Positions 4,372 through 11,088 of a stretch of 44,593 nt of DNA are shown here, in pieces. Source of the stretch: Candidatus Krumholzibacteriia bacterium (GTDB lineage: Bacteria; Krumholzibacteriota; Krumholzibacteriia; Krumholzibacteriales; Krumholzibacteriaceae); NCBI GenBank assembly GCA_023131975.1, contig JAGLYV010000025.1, positions 1-44,593 on the forward strand, in the 5' to 3' direction. Below the pieces are notes generated by a model. That model worked only from the letters and a program-made list of their open reading frames with translations. It searched no databases and was not told the DNA's origin. A program made the position numbers and the translations under genes. Positions within the stretch are counted from its first letter, which is position 1. Each line of letters opens with the position of its first letter.

Positions 4372-5769
4372 TTATTTATTAAGGAGCTGCCCCATTGCCT
4401 CATCAAACCCGTCCTTCCCCGAAAGCATCATGGTACCCGCGGGATATCTGGACGATGCTATTGAGCATAATTCACCTGAAAGATCCCTGATCTCCCACTG
4501 TGCGTGCGTATCACTTCTCAATCTTGAGAAATGATACAACTCCCTCAGATTCATATTCAGCAGCACTCGCCTCCTGTGAGCATTAGTCAGGACATATTCG
4601 GCAAGGATCCTGTCCGTGGAGGCGATCTTCCTGTAAAACTTCTCCGACCTGTCTACCGCTCTTCGGAAAACAGATACCGCACGTCCCTTCTTCACCGCCG
4701 CGGGCACGGTACAGCCAAGGCTCGTGTCGTAGGGTTGTACGATCTGTGTCGCCATCCTGTGTCGCTTGAGCTGCGCGTAGCAGGATGCCGACACTCTGAC
4801 TTCGAAAAGCATCTGAATGTTCTCAAACTCTCTCCACACGCTATCGTGAGGTTTTATAAGCTGCAGCGTCTCGCATATCATATCCCTTATCTCACTCTTT
4901 TTCATCGAACGGGCTTTTTCGAGAGCGGCAAAATATGATATCGACGAACTCGAGAAGATCAGTCCGGCTGCCAGCTTTTCATCACCTGACGCGGTGGACG
5001 AGACCAGGGTCGCCATTTTCCCATCATCATCGACCCGCTTCGCGTTACCTGCGAACCGTTTCCTGATCTGCGGCATCGACTTGAAATATTCGGTAGGCTC
5101 AGGATATTTGATCAGTGACGGCGCGACCTTGCCTGCTATCGATGAAAGCTTTCCAGCAAACTCCCTCAACTCCTGCAGGGGATGTGAGGCCAGCCTGCTG
5201 ATCATATACTCCGCGGCCCTGGCGTTCAGCGTCATTCCGAGCTGAGCGCTCGTGGCAAGCGGCATCAGGTATCTGGCGTCTTCCCTTGCCACGTATTTGT
5301 CTTCGCCGGCACCTTCGATCCGGCGATAGACCTCTTCATAGGCTCCCGACAGATATTCGATCAGTTCCATGAATCCGTCCCTGTATTCGCTTTCTGATAT
5401 CTCTTGAGGAACCACAAAATCCCGTCCCAGTCTGATATAACGCTGGGATTTCTCCGTATACGATGCCAGCCTGAAATGCTCTATAGATTCCACAGCCAGT
5501 CTCGATATATCCATGATATCGAAGTTAAAGACCGCATGTTCGGCCACTGACGAATGACCGAGTCCGAATATTATTGTCTCATTCGATTTGCGCGCCTTCT
5601 CTACCCGTGTCCTCGCTTCCTTCCGGAGCGTGTCGACATTTCTCGGATCTCTGCTGATCCTGGCATACGCCGCCGAGATCACCTCAGGGGTCAACTCCAC
5701 ACCGAATTCGTCGCCCGCTTTCTTTATCATCTCGGATTCCACGTTGTATCCAGCAAGGATCACCCTCAT
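4372..5769 (-). CDS. thyX: Double-domain ThyX-like flavin-dependent thymidylate synthase
   Basis: At 465 residues this is about twice the usual ThyX length and reads as two tandem ThyX-like halves. ThyX methylates dUMP to dTMP with methylene-tetrahydrofolate, FAD and NADPH. The N-terminal half has GHSSVAEHAVFNFDI near residue 71, then a motif at 98-111 that keeps R100, S103, E106, S108, R110 and Y111 of the RHRxxSxNExSxRY signature but not its leading RH. The C-terminal half keeps an intact RHR at 336-338 but loses the rest, and later has NLRELYHF...LR...AQWEIR, better preserved than the equivalent in the first half. The halves may together build one active site. From memory, chlamydial ThyX is also long. 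The start has GGAG at good spacing. No second thymidylate synthase is visible in the window. Confidence 0.8.
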   Translation of the reverse strand: MRVILAGYNVESEMIKKAGDEFGVELTPEVISAAYARISRDPRNVDTLRKEARTRVEKARKSNETIIFGLGHSSVAEHAVFNFDIMDISRLAVESIEHFRLASYTEKSQRYIRLGRDFVVPQEISESEYRDGFMELIEYLSGAYEEVYRRIEGAGEDKYVAREDARYLMPLATSAQLGMTLNARAAEYMISRLASHPLQELREFAGKLSSIAGKVAPSLIKYPEPTEYFKSMPQIRKRFAGNAKRVDDDGKMATLVSSTASGDEKLAAGLIFSSSSISYFAALEKARSMKKSEIRDMICETLQLIKPHDSVWREFENIQMLFEVRVSASCYAQLKRHRMATQIVQPYDTSLGCTVPAAVKKGRAVSVFRRAVDRSEKFYRKIASTDRILAEYVLTNAHRRRVLLNMNLRELYHFSRLRSDTHAQWEIRDLSGELCSIASSRYPAGTMMLSGKDGFDEAMGQLLNK

Positions 5770-5790: not shown

Positions 5791-8700
5791 TTAAAATTCA
5801 AAGAAGACCGTCCCGTAAAATTTCCACTCCTTACCCTCGTATGTCGTCCGTCCTTCGACGAACGGATCCACATACTTTATCTCATTAAAACCATATGCCC
5901 CTTCGAAAGAGACGGCGAGAGGATAGTTATAGAATGAGAAGCCCTTCATCCGGAGTTCGAACCCGGCGTCCTTCATGTTATGATCGAGGTCGAATTTATC
6001 TTCGTCCCAGGCCTTTCCCGCCTCCGCGAAGACCGCGCCATACAGAGACCCGAAGTATGTAGACATCACCTGAGTGTTGATATTCCTCCATATCGGGAAC
6101 CTGTAAGTCAGGCGAGCCATCGCGTTCTTCTTGCCGCCCATGCTGTAATACGAGTATCCGCGCATACCGTCACGGCTTCCAAGGAAAAGGTCGAAGAAAT
6201 CGTCGACCTCCTTCTTGTCTATCAGCCCCCCCTTCACAAAGAGAGAGAGTGAATGCGACCAGAGCGGCAAGGGCAGGTACTCCTCGTAGTGCAGATAGTA
6301 TCTACCGAAATCATTATTGTTATAAAGGGGCTTGAAATTATATTCGAATTCTCCTGACGAAAGGTTGTTCCAGGCCCTTGTCAACTCCAGGCTAATCCTT
6401 CTTCCCCTCTGCGGGTTGATATCAGCATACACGCCAGAGGCTATGTCCCGGTAATTGAGAATAAGGGAGATTTCATTGGCCTTGTAATACTTCCAGCCAA
6501 GCTCCATATCGATATCTTCTGCTTCCCAGGCATTGATATTAAGTCCATACTCTCCACGATTGAACTGGAGGACCGCGTCTTTTCTCTTCCGGGCGGATGG
6601 TTCGTCGAACTCTAACCTGCAACTGAAGAATACGTCCCACAGGTCGTACCTCACCTGCACATTCCCAAGAGCCTCTTCATAGTACTTGTAATACTTTCTG
6701 GCCGAATAGAAATTAACCGCGAACGTCGGTTTGAACTGCCTGGTCTCAATGCCGACCTGGATATTGTATTCCTTGTCATCGTTGATCGAACCGGAAGCGT
6801 AGAAACTCTGGCGATCGAGATAGTCCATCGTATTAAGGGTCAGTCCGATCCTCATTTTTTTATCGTAATACATGAGCCTTGGGAAAAGATAGATCGGTGT
6901 ATACTTGATATCGTAATCCTGAGCTTCACCTATCATCTTATCAAGTTCATCGTAGTCGTACAGCGCGCCGGTCCCGTCGGCAGTACGGATCCTGCAGATA
7001 TAGTCGGCTCTCTTTCCCATGACTTCACCATCTTCAGGCATCGCGCTGCCCGAGAGGGCCTTATCTCTCCAGTCCTCTATCTTCCGGATATCGTATCCGT
7101 CCCTGCCGTAGGATGAGAACAACAGCCCCCTGTCATAGCTCACCGGGGAGAAAGCTCCACCGAGAAGATTTGTCACCATCGCGTCACCGCCATGGCAGGA
7201 TTCTCTATGATATATATTGAATATCCCCGTCCTGTCGCTGGAGTAGAAAAACCCCACGCCTGAATCGTCCCACGATGGGTCACGTTCGTCGGCCAGCGTT
7301 CCGACCAGAACGGTATCCGTACCGGAAACAGGATCGATGAGTACGACATCCCTGCTCGTACCGTCAAACCGCGACGAAAGTACCCCCCTGTCGCTCCACG
7401 ACAGTCCATGATACCGGTATCCTCTTTCCCCTGAAGCGATGACCTTTACATTACAATCATCTGAGCAGCTGGCCACATCGACGAGCACGACATCTTCCTT
7501 GCCATCCCCGGTCATTACGGCCGCTATCGATCTTCCGTCAGGTGAGAACTCCGGATCCACCACTCTCAATCCACGAGTGAGCCTCTCTTCTTTCTCTGTA
7601 TCCATATCGAAGATGAAAATATCGTTTATCTCATAACCGTGTGGGTTGTCATCACCCCTCTTGGCGTAGCAGAGCTTTCGGCCGTCCTTCGATATACCCG
7701 GCCTGGAGTTTACACCGTCCGAGATCGTCCTCGTGCTTCCATCTGGTTCCAGGCAGACGAGATCCATCCCCATGTAATCCCGTCCCTGATTGGAAAGATA
7801 GTAGACCTTTCCGTCTACCCCGGATACTACAGGGAACAGATTCATATAACCTTTTCCGGCAAATCTCACGCCATCTATCGGCCTTTCCGCTATCCTTTCC
7901 CGCACACTGGTGTAATCGGCCCTCATGCTGTTTTTCCAGCGCGTGTAAAGCTCGGAAGAGGATATCCCCAGAGTTTTCCTGCATGCCCCCTCGAACCCGG
8001 ACCTGTTCCATACCTTGAAATATTCCCAGAATCTATCCGGTCGGCAATAAAATGACTTGTGAGCCTCCAGAAGCTCACTGAGACTTTCAGGCCCGAATTC
8101 CTGTGAGATGAACTTTACAAGTGAATATCCCTGATTATATACAAGCTCGGACTCGAGCGAGTTCTTGCCGAAGACCCCCATCTCGTCCAGTGAAAGAAGC
8201 TGATTTTCAAGGACCGCTAGCCGAAGAAGCATATCCCTGTGACTGTCCCATATGTCGTTCCTGGATGTCGGACACTGGAACTGGGCGACCCCCTCGGCGA
8301 ACCAGTTCGGAAGTGTCACTCCCGCGATCGGAAGTGATCCCTGAAAATTGGGATATCCGGTAATCACATCGGGCCTCTTCTCCCTCTCGAATGTGATTCC
8401 CTGCAGATAAATCGAAGGTAGCCATCTCGGCATCTTCATCGCGGACCTTATCGTCACCATGTGTGTGAATTCATGGGTCAGGACATTTCTCAGCCAGTCT
8501 GTCGTTCCACGTAGATGAAATTCATAATCCGAAGCATCGAGATCTATCCTGTTGAGGTAGAAATAGGCGGCACCAGCCGACCTGTCGTCATTGTCATGGA
8601 GGTTTATATGTACTCGATCGAGCTCGTAATCATAGAACTCGGTAACAGGTCCGTATATCTCCTCCGCGATCCTCGCGATCTCTCTTGCGCTCCATTCCTC

Positions 8701-8856
8701 ACCCGCATGAAAATGAACCGAAAAATGCTCGGTCTCAATGCTCTTCCACTTGATCTCCGTTCTGTTCCACGCGGCCAGCCCGGAAGGCAAAAGAATCAAT
8801 ACCAGAACGACCGAAAAAGCCGCGAATAACCTCCCCGATCGGGTAAATCTGATCAT
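5791..8856 (-). CDS. Secreted gluzincin peptidase / TolB-like propeller / outer-membrane barrel fusion
   Basis: About 1021 residues in three parts. A signal peptide (residues 1-29) is followed by a peptidase-MA-like gluzincin domain with HEFTH at 128-132 and the likely third zinc ligand E188 in NWFAEGVAQF. Residues about 355-650 hold repeated TolB/WD40-like blades, for example SRPGISKDGRKLCYAKRG, DPEFSPDGRSIAAVM and DPSWDDSGVGFFYSSDRTG. The last third is rich in alternating aromatic strands, includes a surface-antigen (BamA-like) pattern around FLGSRDGMRGYSYYSMGGKK, and ends in TVFFEF, a C-terminal Phe typical of outer-membrane barrels. I infer a barrel-anchored enzyme or assembly factor; the substrate is unknown. 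The ATG at 8856 has GGAG six bases upstream; a longer reading to 8952 only adds the terminator region. Confidence 0.85.
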   Translation of the reverse strand: MIRFTRSGRLFAAFSVVLVLILLPSGLAAWNRTEIKWKSIETEHFSVHFHAGEEWSAREIARIAEEIYGPVTEFYDYELDRVHINLHDNDDRSAGAAYFYLNRIDLDASDYEFHLRGTTDWLRNVLTHEFTHMVTIRSAMKMPRWLPSIYLQGITFEREKRPDVITGYPNFQGSLPIAGVTLPNWFAEGVAQFQCPTSRNDIWDSHRDMLLRLAVLENQLLSLDEMGVFGKNSLESELVYNQGYSLVKFISQEFGPESLSELLEAHKSFYCRPDRFWEYFKVWNRSGFEGACRKTLGISSSELYTRWKNSMRADYTSVRERIAERPIDGVRFAGKGYMNLFPVVSGVDGKVYYLSNQGRDYMGMDLVCLEPDGSTRTISDGVNSRPGISKDGRKLCYAKRGDDNPHGYEINDIFIFDMDTEKEERLTRGLRVVDPEFSPDGRSIAAVMTGDGKEDVVLVDVASCSDDCNVKVIASGERGYRYHGLSWSDRGVLSSRFDGTSRDVVLIDPVSGTDTVLVGTLADERDPSWDDSGVGFFYSSDRTGIFNIYHRESCHGGDAMVTNLLGGAFSPVSYDRGLLFSSYGRDGYDIRKIEDWRDKALSGSAMPEDGEVMGKRADYICRIRTADGTGALYDYDELDKMIGEAQDYDIKYTPIYLFPRLMYYDKKMRIGLTLNTMDYLDRQSFYASGSINDDKEYNIQVGIETRQFKPTFAVNFYSARKYYKYYEEALGNVQVRYDLWDVFFSCRLEFDEPSARKRKDAVLQFNRGEYGLNINAWEAEDIDMELGWKYYKANEISLILNYRDIASGVYADINPQRGRRISLELTRAWNNLSSGEFEYNFKPLYNNNDFGRYYLHYEEYLPLPLWSHSLSLFVKGGLIDKKEVDDFFDLFLGSRDGMRGYSYYSMGGKKNAMARLTYRFPIWRNINTQVMSTYFGSLYGAVFAEAGKAWDEDKFDLDHNMKDAGFELRMKGFSFYNYPLAVSFEGAYGFNEIKYVDPFVEGRTTYEGKEWKFYGTVFFEF

Positions 8857-8995: not shown

Positions 8996-9961
8996 CTATC
9001 TTCCGCTGACCTTTTTAAGATATCTGTAAATATCACTGTCAGTAGTCATGATCACCCTCGAATTAGAGGCAAGGGATTCCTTGTAGACATCAAGAGTCTG
9101 CAGGAACGAATAGAACTCGGGATCTTTGCGGTATGCCGCGGCATATATCTTCGTTGCTCTGGCATCAGCCTCGCCCCTGATCTCCTGTGAGCGCTTGTAA
9201 GCCTCCGACTGTATCCTGTTCAATTCCCTTTCCTTCATACCGACGATCTCGGCTTTCTTTCCTTCACCCTCGGAACGATACTTCGAAGCTACTCTCTGGC
9301 GTTCGGAGATCATCCTTTCGTATACCTTCTTCCGTACATCCTCGATATAGTTGAGTCTCTTTATCTGGACATCGAGGAGTTCAATGCCGTACGCAGGTGT
9401 AAGTTCGATAGCCCTTGCAAGAATATCCCTTGCGGTGGCTTCTCTCCCGAAGGTTATTCTTTCGAGTTCTTCAGCTACCTGGGCCTCTTCCCCTACACTC
9501 TCTTCCAGTTCCTCGGCAGTCTGTTCCGCATCGAGAATACTGTTGGTATTTCTCACGACCTCGACGAGGATATGCCCCGAAACGACATCTCTCGATGCCG
9601 AATCGATGATATCATCCATCCTCGTCTGCGCGCCTGTAACATTCCCGACAGACTGGTAGAAGAGCAGAGGATCGACTATCCGCCACCTGGCCGTCGTATC
9701 GAGCCAGATATATTTCTTGTCAGCCGTGGGGATCTGATCGGCGGACGCGTCCCATATGAGGATCCTCTTATCGAACTTGTGCAACGTATGGATGAGAGGC
9801 ATCTTGAAATGCAGGCCAGCCTTGTCTATCTTTCCGCCTATCGGCTTTCCGAACTGGGTGATGATCGCCTGTTCCGATTCCTTCAGCGTGTACACGGCGT
9901 TCGATAGAAATATTAACACGACGACTCCGAGAATGATCAAAGGTAATCCTTTCCTCTTCAT
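8996..9961 (-). CDS. hflC: HflC, SPFH-domain membrane protease modulator
   Basis: A 321-residue band-7/SPFH protein with one N-terminal membrane segment (about residues 5-24), followed by the HflC-type start TLKESEQAIITQFGKP and GLHFKMPLIHTLHKFDKR. The SPFH core contains DTTARWRIVDPLLFYQSVG, and a long coiled-coil-prone region follows (ERMISERQRVASKYRSEGEGKK, split by the family's alanine/glutamate heptads). With HflK it forms a cage around FtsH in the inner membrane and tunes membrane-protein turnover. The start overlaps the hflK stop as ATGA. An acidic insertion near residues 150-165 (EELEESVGEEAQVAEELE) is longer than I expect for the family. FtsH is not in the window. Confidence 0.95.
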   Translation of the reverse strand: MKRKGLPLIILGVVVLIFLSNAVYTLKESEQAIITQFGKPIGGKIDKAGLHFKMPLIHTLHKFDKRILIWDASADQIPTADKKYIWLDTTARWRIVDPLLFYQSVGNVTGAQTRMDDIIDSASRDVVSGHILVEVVRNTNSILDAEQTAEELEESVGEEAQVAEELERITFGREATARDILARAIELTPAYGIELLDVQIKRLNYIEDVRKKVYERMISERQRVASKYRSEGEGKKAEIVGMKERELNRIQSEAYKRSQEIRGEADARATKIYAAAYRKDPEFYSFLQTLDVYKESLASNSRVIMTTDSDIYRYLKKVSGR

Positions 9962-10941
9962 CGCCCATCACCTCCCTTCGCCCTTCCGCCCAGATCGAGC
10001 AGTGGCAATATCGATTTCTGCTTCTCATCTACAATATAGATCTCCTCGAGTTTTGGCAGTATCTCACGCATTGTCTCAAGATACAGTCGCCTTCTGGTCA
10101 CATCGGGAGCATTTCTGTATTCGAGGTAGACCTGGTTGAACAGTGACGCGTCGCCCATAGCCTGGTTGACTCTCTGTAGAGCATAACCCTCCGCCATCGC
10201 TATCATCTGTTCCGCTTCACCTTTGGCCCTGGGAATCCTCTTGTTGTAATCCTCCCAGGCCTCGTTGATCATTTTTTCCTTGTCCTGTTTCGCCCTGTTC
10301 ACCTCGTTAAACGCGGGCCTTACCGGCTCGGGGGGATTGACGTCCTGTAGCTTCACGGTGACGACCTGGATACCTGACTCGAACTGGTCGAGAAGAATCT
10401 GCAGACCGACCTCCACTTCCTTGGCGATCTCGATCCTGCCGAGCGTAAGGACATCCGTAACGGCCCTGTCTCCGACCACTCTTCGCACAACCGCCTCAGA
10501 CATCGCCCTGAGCGTTTCCTGAGGATCCTTTATCTTGAACAGATAATTGTAAGGATCCTTTACCTTGTACTGTACGATCCACTCGACTTCGGCAACATTA
10601 AGGTCTCCTGTCAGGATGATCGATTCATTCTGGAATCCCCTGCTCGCGTACTGGGTCCTGACAGCAGCCTTTATCGTACGAAAGCCGAATTCCTGTTTGA
10701 ATACCTTCTTGACTTTGACCTTTTCGACTCTCTCGACACCGAATGGGATCTTGAAATGAAGACCGGGGTTCGTCGTCCTGACATATTTGCCGAACTGGAG
10801 GATCACCCCGACCTCATCGGTGCCGACCGAGTATAATCCCGAAGCGACGATCACTATCGCCAGGATAACTAGTATTATCCGCTTGAACAGCTTCCCCTGG
10901 ACTTCGTAGGAATCCTTTCCTACCTGGACTTTCATCTGCAT
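9958..10941 (-). CDS. hflK: HflK, SPFH-domain membrane protease modulator
   Basis: A 327-residue SPFH protein with one N-terminal transmembrane helix (about residues 22-40), then GTDEVGVILQFGKYVRTTNPGLHFKIP split across the typical HflK entry to the domain. The region DLNVAEVEWIVQYKVKDPYNYLF and VTVKLQDVNPPEPV are strong HflK signatures. It lacks the long Gly-rich N-terminal extension of enterobacterial HflK. GTG at 10944, ATG at 10941 and ATG at 10935 all begin in frame; a GGGTGA element favours 10935, so the start is uncertain by a few residues. It is translated just ahead of hflC. The gene is 147 bases downstream of hypD, so it may have its own promoter. Confidence 0.95.
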   Translation of the reverse strand: MQMKVQVGKDSYEVQGKLFKRIILVILAIVIVASGLYSVGTDEVGVILQFGKYVRTTNPGLHFKIPFGVERVEKVKVKKVFKQEFGFRTIKAAVRTQYASRGFQNESIILTGDLNVAEVEWIVQYKVKDPYNYLFKIKDPQETLRAMSEAVVRRVVGDRAVTDVLTLGRIEIAKEVEVGLQILLDQFESGIQVVTVKLQDVNPPEPVRPAFNEVNRAKQDKEKMINEAWEDYNKRIPRAKGEAEQMIAMAEGYALQRVNQAMGDASLFNQVYLEYRNAPDVTRRRLYLETMREILPKLEEIYIVDEKQKSILPLLDLGGRAKGGDGR

Positions 10942-11088
10942 CACCCGCTTTCATTACAACTCCACCGGCACACAACCACAGATGCCGGTCCGTCCTTACA
11001 TCCAATACAACCTTTGACAATATTTATTCATTCAACGCTTTTTACGGTAATTCAGTTCTGTCAGATGAGTCAACAGGTTTCTGGAAAC

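Follow-up and report, generated by a model that had tools for sequence, protein, structure and literature searches.

A predicted outer-membrane protein joining a gluzincin peptidase, a TolB-like propeller and an Omp85-type barrel, with gene linkage to the T9SS

A gene in a 44,593-nucleotide contig from a Candidatus Krumholzibacteriia bacterium (the whole stretch analysed, hereafter the window) encodes an intact gluzincin peptidase domain, a TolB-like β-propeller and an Omp85-type barrel in one chain. Its zinc site is invariant among aligned relatives, and outside Krumholzibacteriota the gene recurs in tight clusters with T9SS genes. With moderate confidence, we propose that the product is a zinc protease that is anchored in the outer membrane and serves the biogenesis of outer-membrane proteins. 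Judged from sequence and context, the family probably has an as yet unrecognised helper role in secretion or in the assembly of outer-membrane proteins.

Results

One reading frame with relatives in many phyla

The gene occupies positions 5791-8856 on the minus strand, to which all window coordinates below refer, with an ATG at 8856, a stop at 5791 and a product of 1021 residues. This frame bears out an earlier sequence-only reading, which had assigned the region, with no strand given, to a single polypeptide of about that length. Read on the plus strand, the same stretch contains stops throughout and was rejected. A TTG-initiated version of the frame reaches 8952; we took the ATG at 8856 as the start because it begins a signal peptide. 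This Sec signal (about residues 1-29; 8770-8856), which has no lipobox cysteine, is evident from the hydrophobic N-terminus and from a modelled helix at residues 2-26. The coding sequence is complete and intact, as judged from the open frame and from whole-length orthologs, and the nearest genome has a copy of equal length that is 86% identical.

A single-sequence scan of genome contigs found no relatives. Relatives were obtained by an alignment-based pattern scan of data holding one genome per species, where at least 535 candidate stretches encode them. The best 80 of these are mostly full length and come from Krumholzibacteriota, Latescibacterota, Zixibacteria, KSB1, Calditrichota, Ignavibacteriota, Bacteroidota and Gemmatimonadota. 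Close orthologs are present in four of the eight sampled families of Krumholzibacteriota, the source phylum. Taxonomic distribution was among the checks suggested by the sequence-only reading; because full-length relatives span many phyla, chance is ruled out for the observation.

For structure prediction with AlphaFold2, 22 relatives were aligned. The model of the whole protein (pLDDT 78.6, pTM 0.79) shows, in order, a signal helix, an α/β peptidase domain, a propeller, two helices and 16 long strands.

The peptidase domain has an invariant zinc site

The N-terminal domain (about residues 30-345; 7822-8769) matches the Pfam family Peptidase_MA_2 (PF13485) with 32.7 bits against a gathering threshold of 32.4 (E = 8.6e-8). 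Modelled alone, it reaches a pTM of 0.85. A profile of the domain matched no chain among PDB sequences, and a fold search was therefore used. Foldseek comparison of the model with the PDB returned lugdulysin (M30), an M61 enzyme, M9 collagenases and M1 aminopeptidases. The motif HEFTH, for zinc binding and catalysis, lies at residues 128-132 (8461-8475) and WFAEG at 185-189, in which Glu188 (8293-8295) would be the third zinc ligand. An HExxH motif with a downstream glutamate in a gluzincin fold is the hallmark of clan MA(E), and the zinc-peptidase assignment made from the sequence therefore holds.

His128, Glu129, His132 and Glu188 are identical in 76 of 76 aligned relatives. Because these residues stood outside the search patterns, their conservation is no search artefact; conservation of the WDSHRDM motif is partly a product of the patterns. 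The invariance of every zinc-site residue indicates that catalysis is under selection, and zinc-dependent proteolysis is the activity predicted from this conserved active site.

The propeller leads into an Omp85-type barrel

Approximately residues 346-593 (7078-7821) form the propeller, as seen in the model strands. PD40 scores above its Pfam gathering threshold here, and Foldseek returns TolB structures first and Bacteroidota BamA structures next, in agreement with the TolB/WD40-like blades that had been proposed. Membership in TolB proper, of the Tol-Pal system, was considered and rejected, with TIGR02800 scoring 43.8 bits (E = 1.6e-11) against a cut-off of 343. The propeller is followed by a linker (6892-7077), which takes the position of the POTRA domains found in other Omp85 proteins. 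Pfam gave no POTRA match, and the model shows just two short helices before the barrel.

The remainder of the protein (residues 656-1021; 5794-6891), ending in a C-terminal Phe, is modelled as a barrel whose 16 strands run from residue 656 to 1019. Profile searches for the peptidase, the TolB propeller and Bac_surface_Ag had been suggested beforehand. Peptidase_MA_2 and PD40 score above threshold in the query, and Bac_surface_Ag (PF01103) falls below the Pfam threshold in the query itself; five of 22 relatives and paralogs do match it. With hhalign, the barrel profile aligns to the genome's own BamA at 95% probability and to its own TamA at 93%, compared to 0.2% for an unrelated control, and HMMER finds TamA chains in the PDB (E = 1.2e-4). 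An RGY motif at residues 899-901 (6154-6162) lies in the stretch that joins strands 11 and 12, the site of (V/I)RG(F/Y) in Omp85 proteins, and is the equivalent of their loop-6 motif. Among the 76 relatives, Y901 is kept in all, G900 in 72, and R or K in 73. With regard to the Omp85/TpsB superfamily, the protein thus has the homologous barrel, the 16 strands and the motif but no POTRA. According to the available text of PMC4104836, POTRA domains are not required for the non-POTRA Omp85 classes.

The sequence-only reading had named two outcomes that would count against it: a C-terminal third that does not model as a barrel, and zinc residues absent in homologs. Neither occurred: a barrel is what the C-terminus models as, and every relative keeps the zinc residues. 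Both the three-part architecture and the proposal that a protease would be held at the outer membrane are well supported.

Outside Krumholzibacteriota the gene clusters with T9SS genes

Clustering of neighbouring genes at loci outside Krumholzibacteriota uncovered a recurrent, tight, same-strand order: the PorU sortase, PorV, an M6-like gene, sometimes a gene for a protein of ~220 residues, the peptidase-propeller-barrel gene, and one or two DUF5683-like genes. Counting only those loci with enough flank, the upstream genes include the M6-like gene in 42 of 48, PorV in 41 of 45 and PorU in 20 of 39, and DUF5683 is downstream in 51 of 56. The intergenic gaps are mostly tens of base pairs or overlaps. 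The PorU neighbours match NF033707 (970 and 724 bits), and PorV was identified by NF033710. The M6-like neighbours match NF052323, 'T9SS-dependent M6-like inactivated metalloprotease'.

The M6-like neighbours at two loci (L066, 5995-9249; L111, 6852-9971), called inactivated by NCBIfam, contain FG-GAP repeats and a T9SS sorting domain. In most loci the inactivated M6-like gene adjoins the gene for the intact protease.

At L066 the cluster is extended, past two opposite-strand genes, by an open frame of 2050 residues, and the SprA search maps SprA there (G094:C44). A comparison of listed positions places SprA within ~10 kb of the gene in six Bacteroidota-side genomes. The family occurs in 78 of 198 genomes from this side (the phylum of L066), and SprA is found in all 78 of them, compared to 76 of the 120 family-negative genomes (Fisher p = 6e-12, uncorrected for kinship). 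None of the 44 SprA-negative genomes has the family, and 76 of the 154 SprA-positive genomes are without it. Of the genomes from which the loci were drawn (49 in all), 47 have SprA, and in the remaining two PorU and the M6-like gene lie next to the family member. In a tree of the family, T9SS linkage is also seen on the Zixibacteria and Latescibacterota/Gemmatimonadota branches, although the linked label takes in one doubtful locus, L071, whose PorV-like gene lies far off and in the other orientation. Gene linkage of this kind shows a shared process rather than a mechanism.

Might the protein be a dedicated T9SS maturation protease, cleaving T9SS propeptides or surface cargo alongside PorU, instead of serving general outer-membrane assembly or quality control? 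At the majority of these loci its gene comes right after PorU-PorV and the CTD-bearing M6-like gene, no family-positive genome among the 198 is without SprA, and PorU carries a C25 propeptide. However, half of the SprA-positive genomes manage without the family, and the Krumholzibacteriota loci described below pair the window-clade gene with HflK-HflC and same-architecture paralogs with TamA-TamB, not with the T9SS. We therefore consider so narrow a role unlikely.

In Krumholzibacteriota the gene and its paralogs sit elsewhere

The window gene lies after HflK-HflC and before ThyX, an arrangement common to about ten Krumholzibacteriota loci. HflC, the immediate upstream neighbour (8996-9961; TIGR01932, 291 bits against a cut-off of 134), is overlapped by HflK (9958-10944; TIGR01933, 284 bits against 159). 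The ThyX-type thymidylate synthase (4372-5769; TIGR02170), 21 bp downstream, is probably functionally unrelated. That protein has 465 residues, which makes it roughly double the ThyX model in length, and two Thy1-matching stretches.

The T9SS is usually described as Bacteroidota-specific. Matches to SprA, PorU and PorV were present in 78 of 78 sampled Krumholzibacteriota genomes, compared to under half for the family, which is therefore not required for the T9SS of this phylum. Contig C87 of the source genome (L126, 1426-12787) carries a run of PorU, PorV, an M6-like CTD protein, an unknown protein, a DUF5683-like protein and an NHL propeller, without this gene. A protein of ~320 residues beside PorUV in Krumholzibacteriota (L126, 3263-4210; L127, 9215-10189) has no Pfam or NCBIfam match. 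In the tree, T9SS linkage is absent from a group made up of the Krumholzibacteriota clade and a single Latescibacterota sequence, and linked loci occur on the surrounding branches. This suggests that the gene relocated; the deepest branching order is unsettled. Overall, the family shows T9SS linkage and co-occurs with SprA, PorU and PorV, but the linkage is absent in the window clade and the family is absent from many T9SS-positive genomes.

The source genome encodes further proteins of the same architecture. One such paralog directly follows TamA-TamB in four Krumholzibacteriota genomes from three families (L138, 1085-10381, on contig C101 of the source genome, G000; also L139, L140 and L142). 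These TamA-TamB-linked proteins have 1089-1122 residues, PD40, and intact HExxH and WFAEG or WIAEG motifs. A shorter paralog of 934 residues, with HEMVH and WFTEG, is encoded among housekeeping-type genes (L141, 6052-8856, contig C147 of the source genome); its Omp85 part scores just above the Pfam cut-off.

The TamA-TamB link bears on another explanation, in which the barrel acts as a dedicated insertase for SprA, PorV or further barrels, with a peptidase that serves mostly as a module for binding. The barrel is homologous to those of BamA and TamA, and the barrels of T9SS translocons are unusually large. Still, a binding module would not account for selection on every zinc-site residue, and a POTRA-bearing BamA is already encoded in this genome, as well as TamA-TamB. 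An insertase of this kind strikes us as improbable.

Discussion

Omp85 proteins normally assemble or translocate proteins. In the reading we prefer, a zinc protease anchored in the outer membrane, the 16-strand barrel would insert in that membrane after Sec export and leave the N-terminus on the periplasmic side, where the TolB-like propeller and gluzincin domain would hang below the membrane. From general Omp85 topology and the precedent of the patatin-Omp85 protein PlpD, whose enzyme domain stays periplasmic (PMC11116518), we infer that the active site is most likely in the periplasm. The propeller would provide the docking contact with partner machinery or clients, and outer-membrane clients would be trimmed or removed by the protease. 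In T9SS-linked lineages the clients would most likely be T9SS parts or cargo, such as SprA, PorV, PorU and the CTD-bearing M6-like protein. The protein would then combine in one chain the work of BamA, of a propeller resembling BamB/TolB and of a protease resembling BepA.

Against this reading, the protein could act at the surface if its protease domain were exported. A type Vd-like arrangement, with the Omp85 barrel passing its own protease and propeller to the surface as a degradative enzyme, would find every part it needs in this one chain, and PlpD was itself originally proposed to be self-exporting, as discussed in the available text of PMC4104836. However, later work showed that the PlpD enzyme domain stays in the periplasm (PMC11116518). 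In addition, the present protein has no POTRA, a folded protease and propeller of ~600 residues would need to cross the barrel, and the conserved operon partners point to an envelope role. Self-export is thus very doubtful here.

That the protein helps outer-membrane or surface proteins to mature, which the sequence-only reading had offered as a possibility, is plausible and gains contextual support from the T9SS cluster, the TamAB-linked paralog and HflKC. Going further, and tentatively, the family may be an unrecognised part of the T9SS pathway in deep-branching FCB phyla that processes or quality-controls T9SS outer-membrane machinery, with protease-propeller-Omp85 paralogs each dedicated to one machine (T9SS, TAM); we rate this as possible rather than probable. 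If true, proteolysis would be built into outer-membrane assembly across a large part of the bacterial tree, and the T9SS would have unlisted partners in phyla related to Bacteroidota.

Comparison with known systems

Lugdulysin (M30) and the M61, M9 and M1 gluzincins share the peptidase fold, with HExxH plus a downstream Glu, but are only ~10-14% identical to the domain described here. TolB is the best structural match of the central domain; unlike TolB, the propeller here is covalently joined to a protease and a barrel. BepA is a soluble M48-TPR gluzincin metalloprotease at the outer membrane that acts on barrel proteins, and it and other periplasmic quality-control proteases of the BAM pathway are the functional analogues we propose. 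Compared to BepA, the present protein belongs to another gluzincin family and also carries a propeller and a barrel of its own. A possible functional link between BAM and the T9SS has been raised for Bacteroidota (PMC12611786). In the open-access literature searched we found no link between a peptidase, Omp85 and the T9SS, and the combination of a conserved active protease with T9SS and TAM linkage appears undescribed there. PlpD, of type Vd, likewise carries an enzyme domain on the N-terminal side of an Omp85 barrel in the same chain, but that domain is lipase-like rather than a zinc protease, and PlpD has a POTRA and no propeller.

The closest published counterpart is the WD40-Omp85 class, named in 2014 and likened to a BamA-BamB fusion (Heinz and Lithgow, PMC4104836, available text). 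With a propeller N-terminal to an Omp85 barrel and no POTRA, the present protein fits the definition of this class, and judged by the class description in that text, our family is likely the published cluster. The available text mentions no peptidase for the class. By contrast, the proteins described here have a conserved, intact gluzincin domain before the propeller, and their genes have ties to T9SS and TAM loci.
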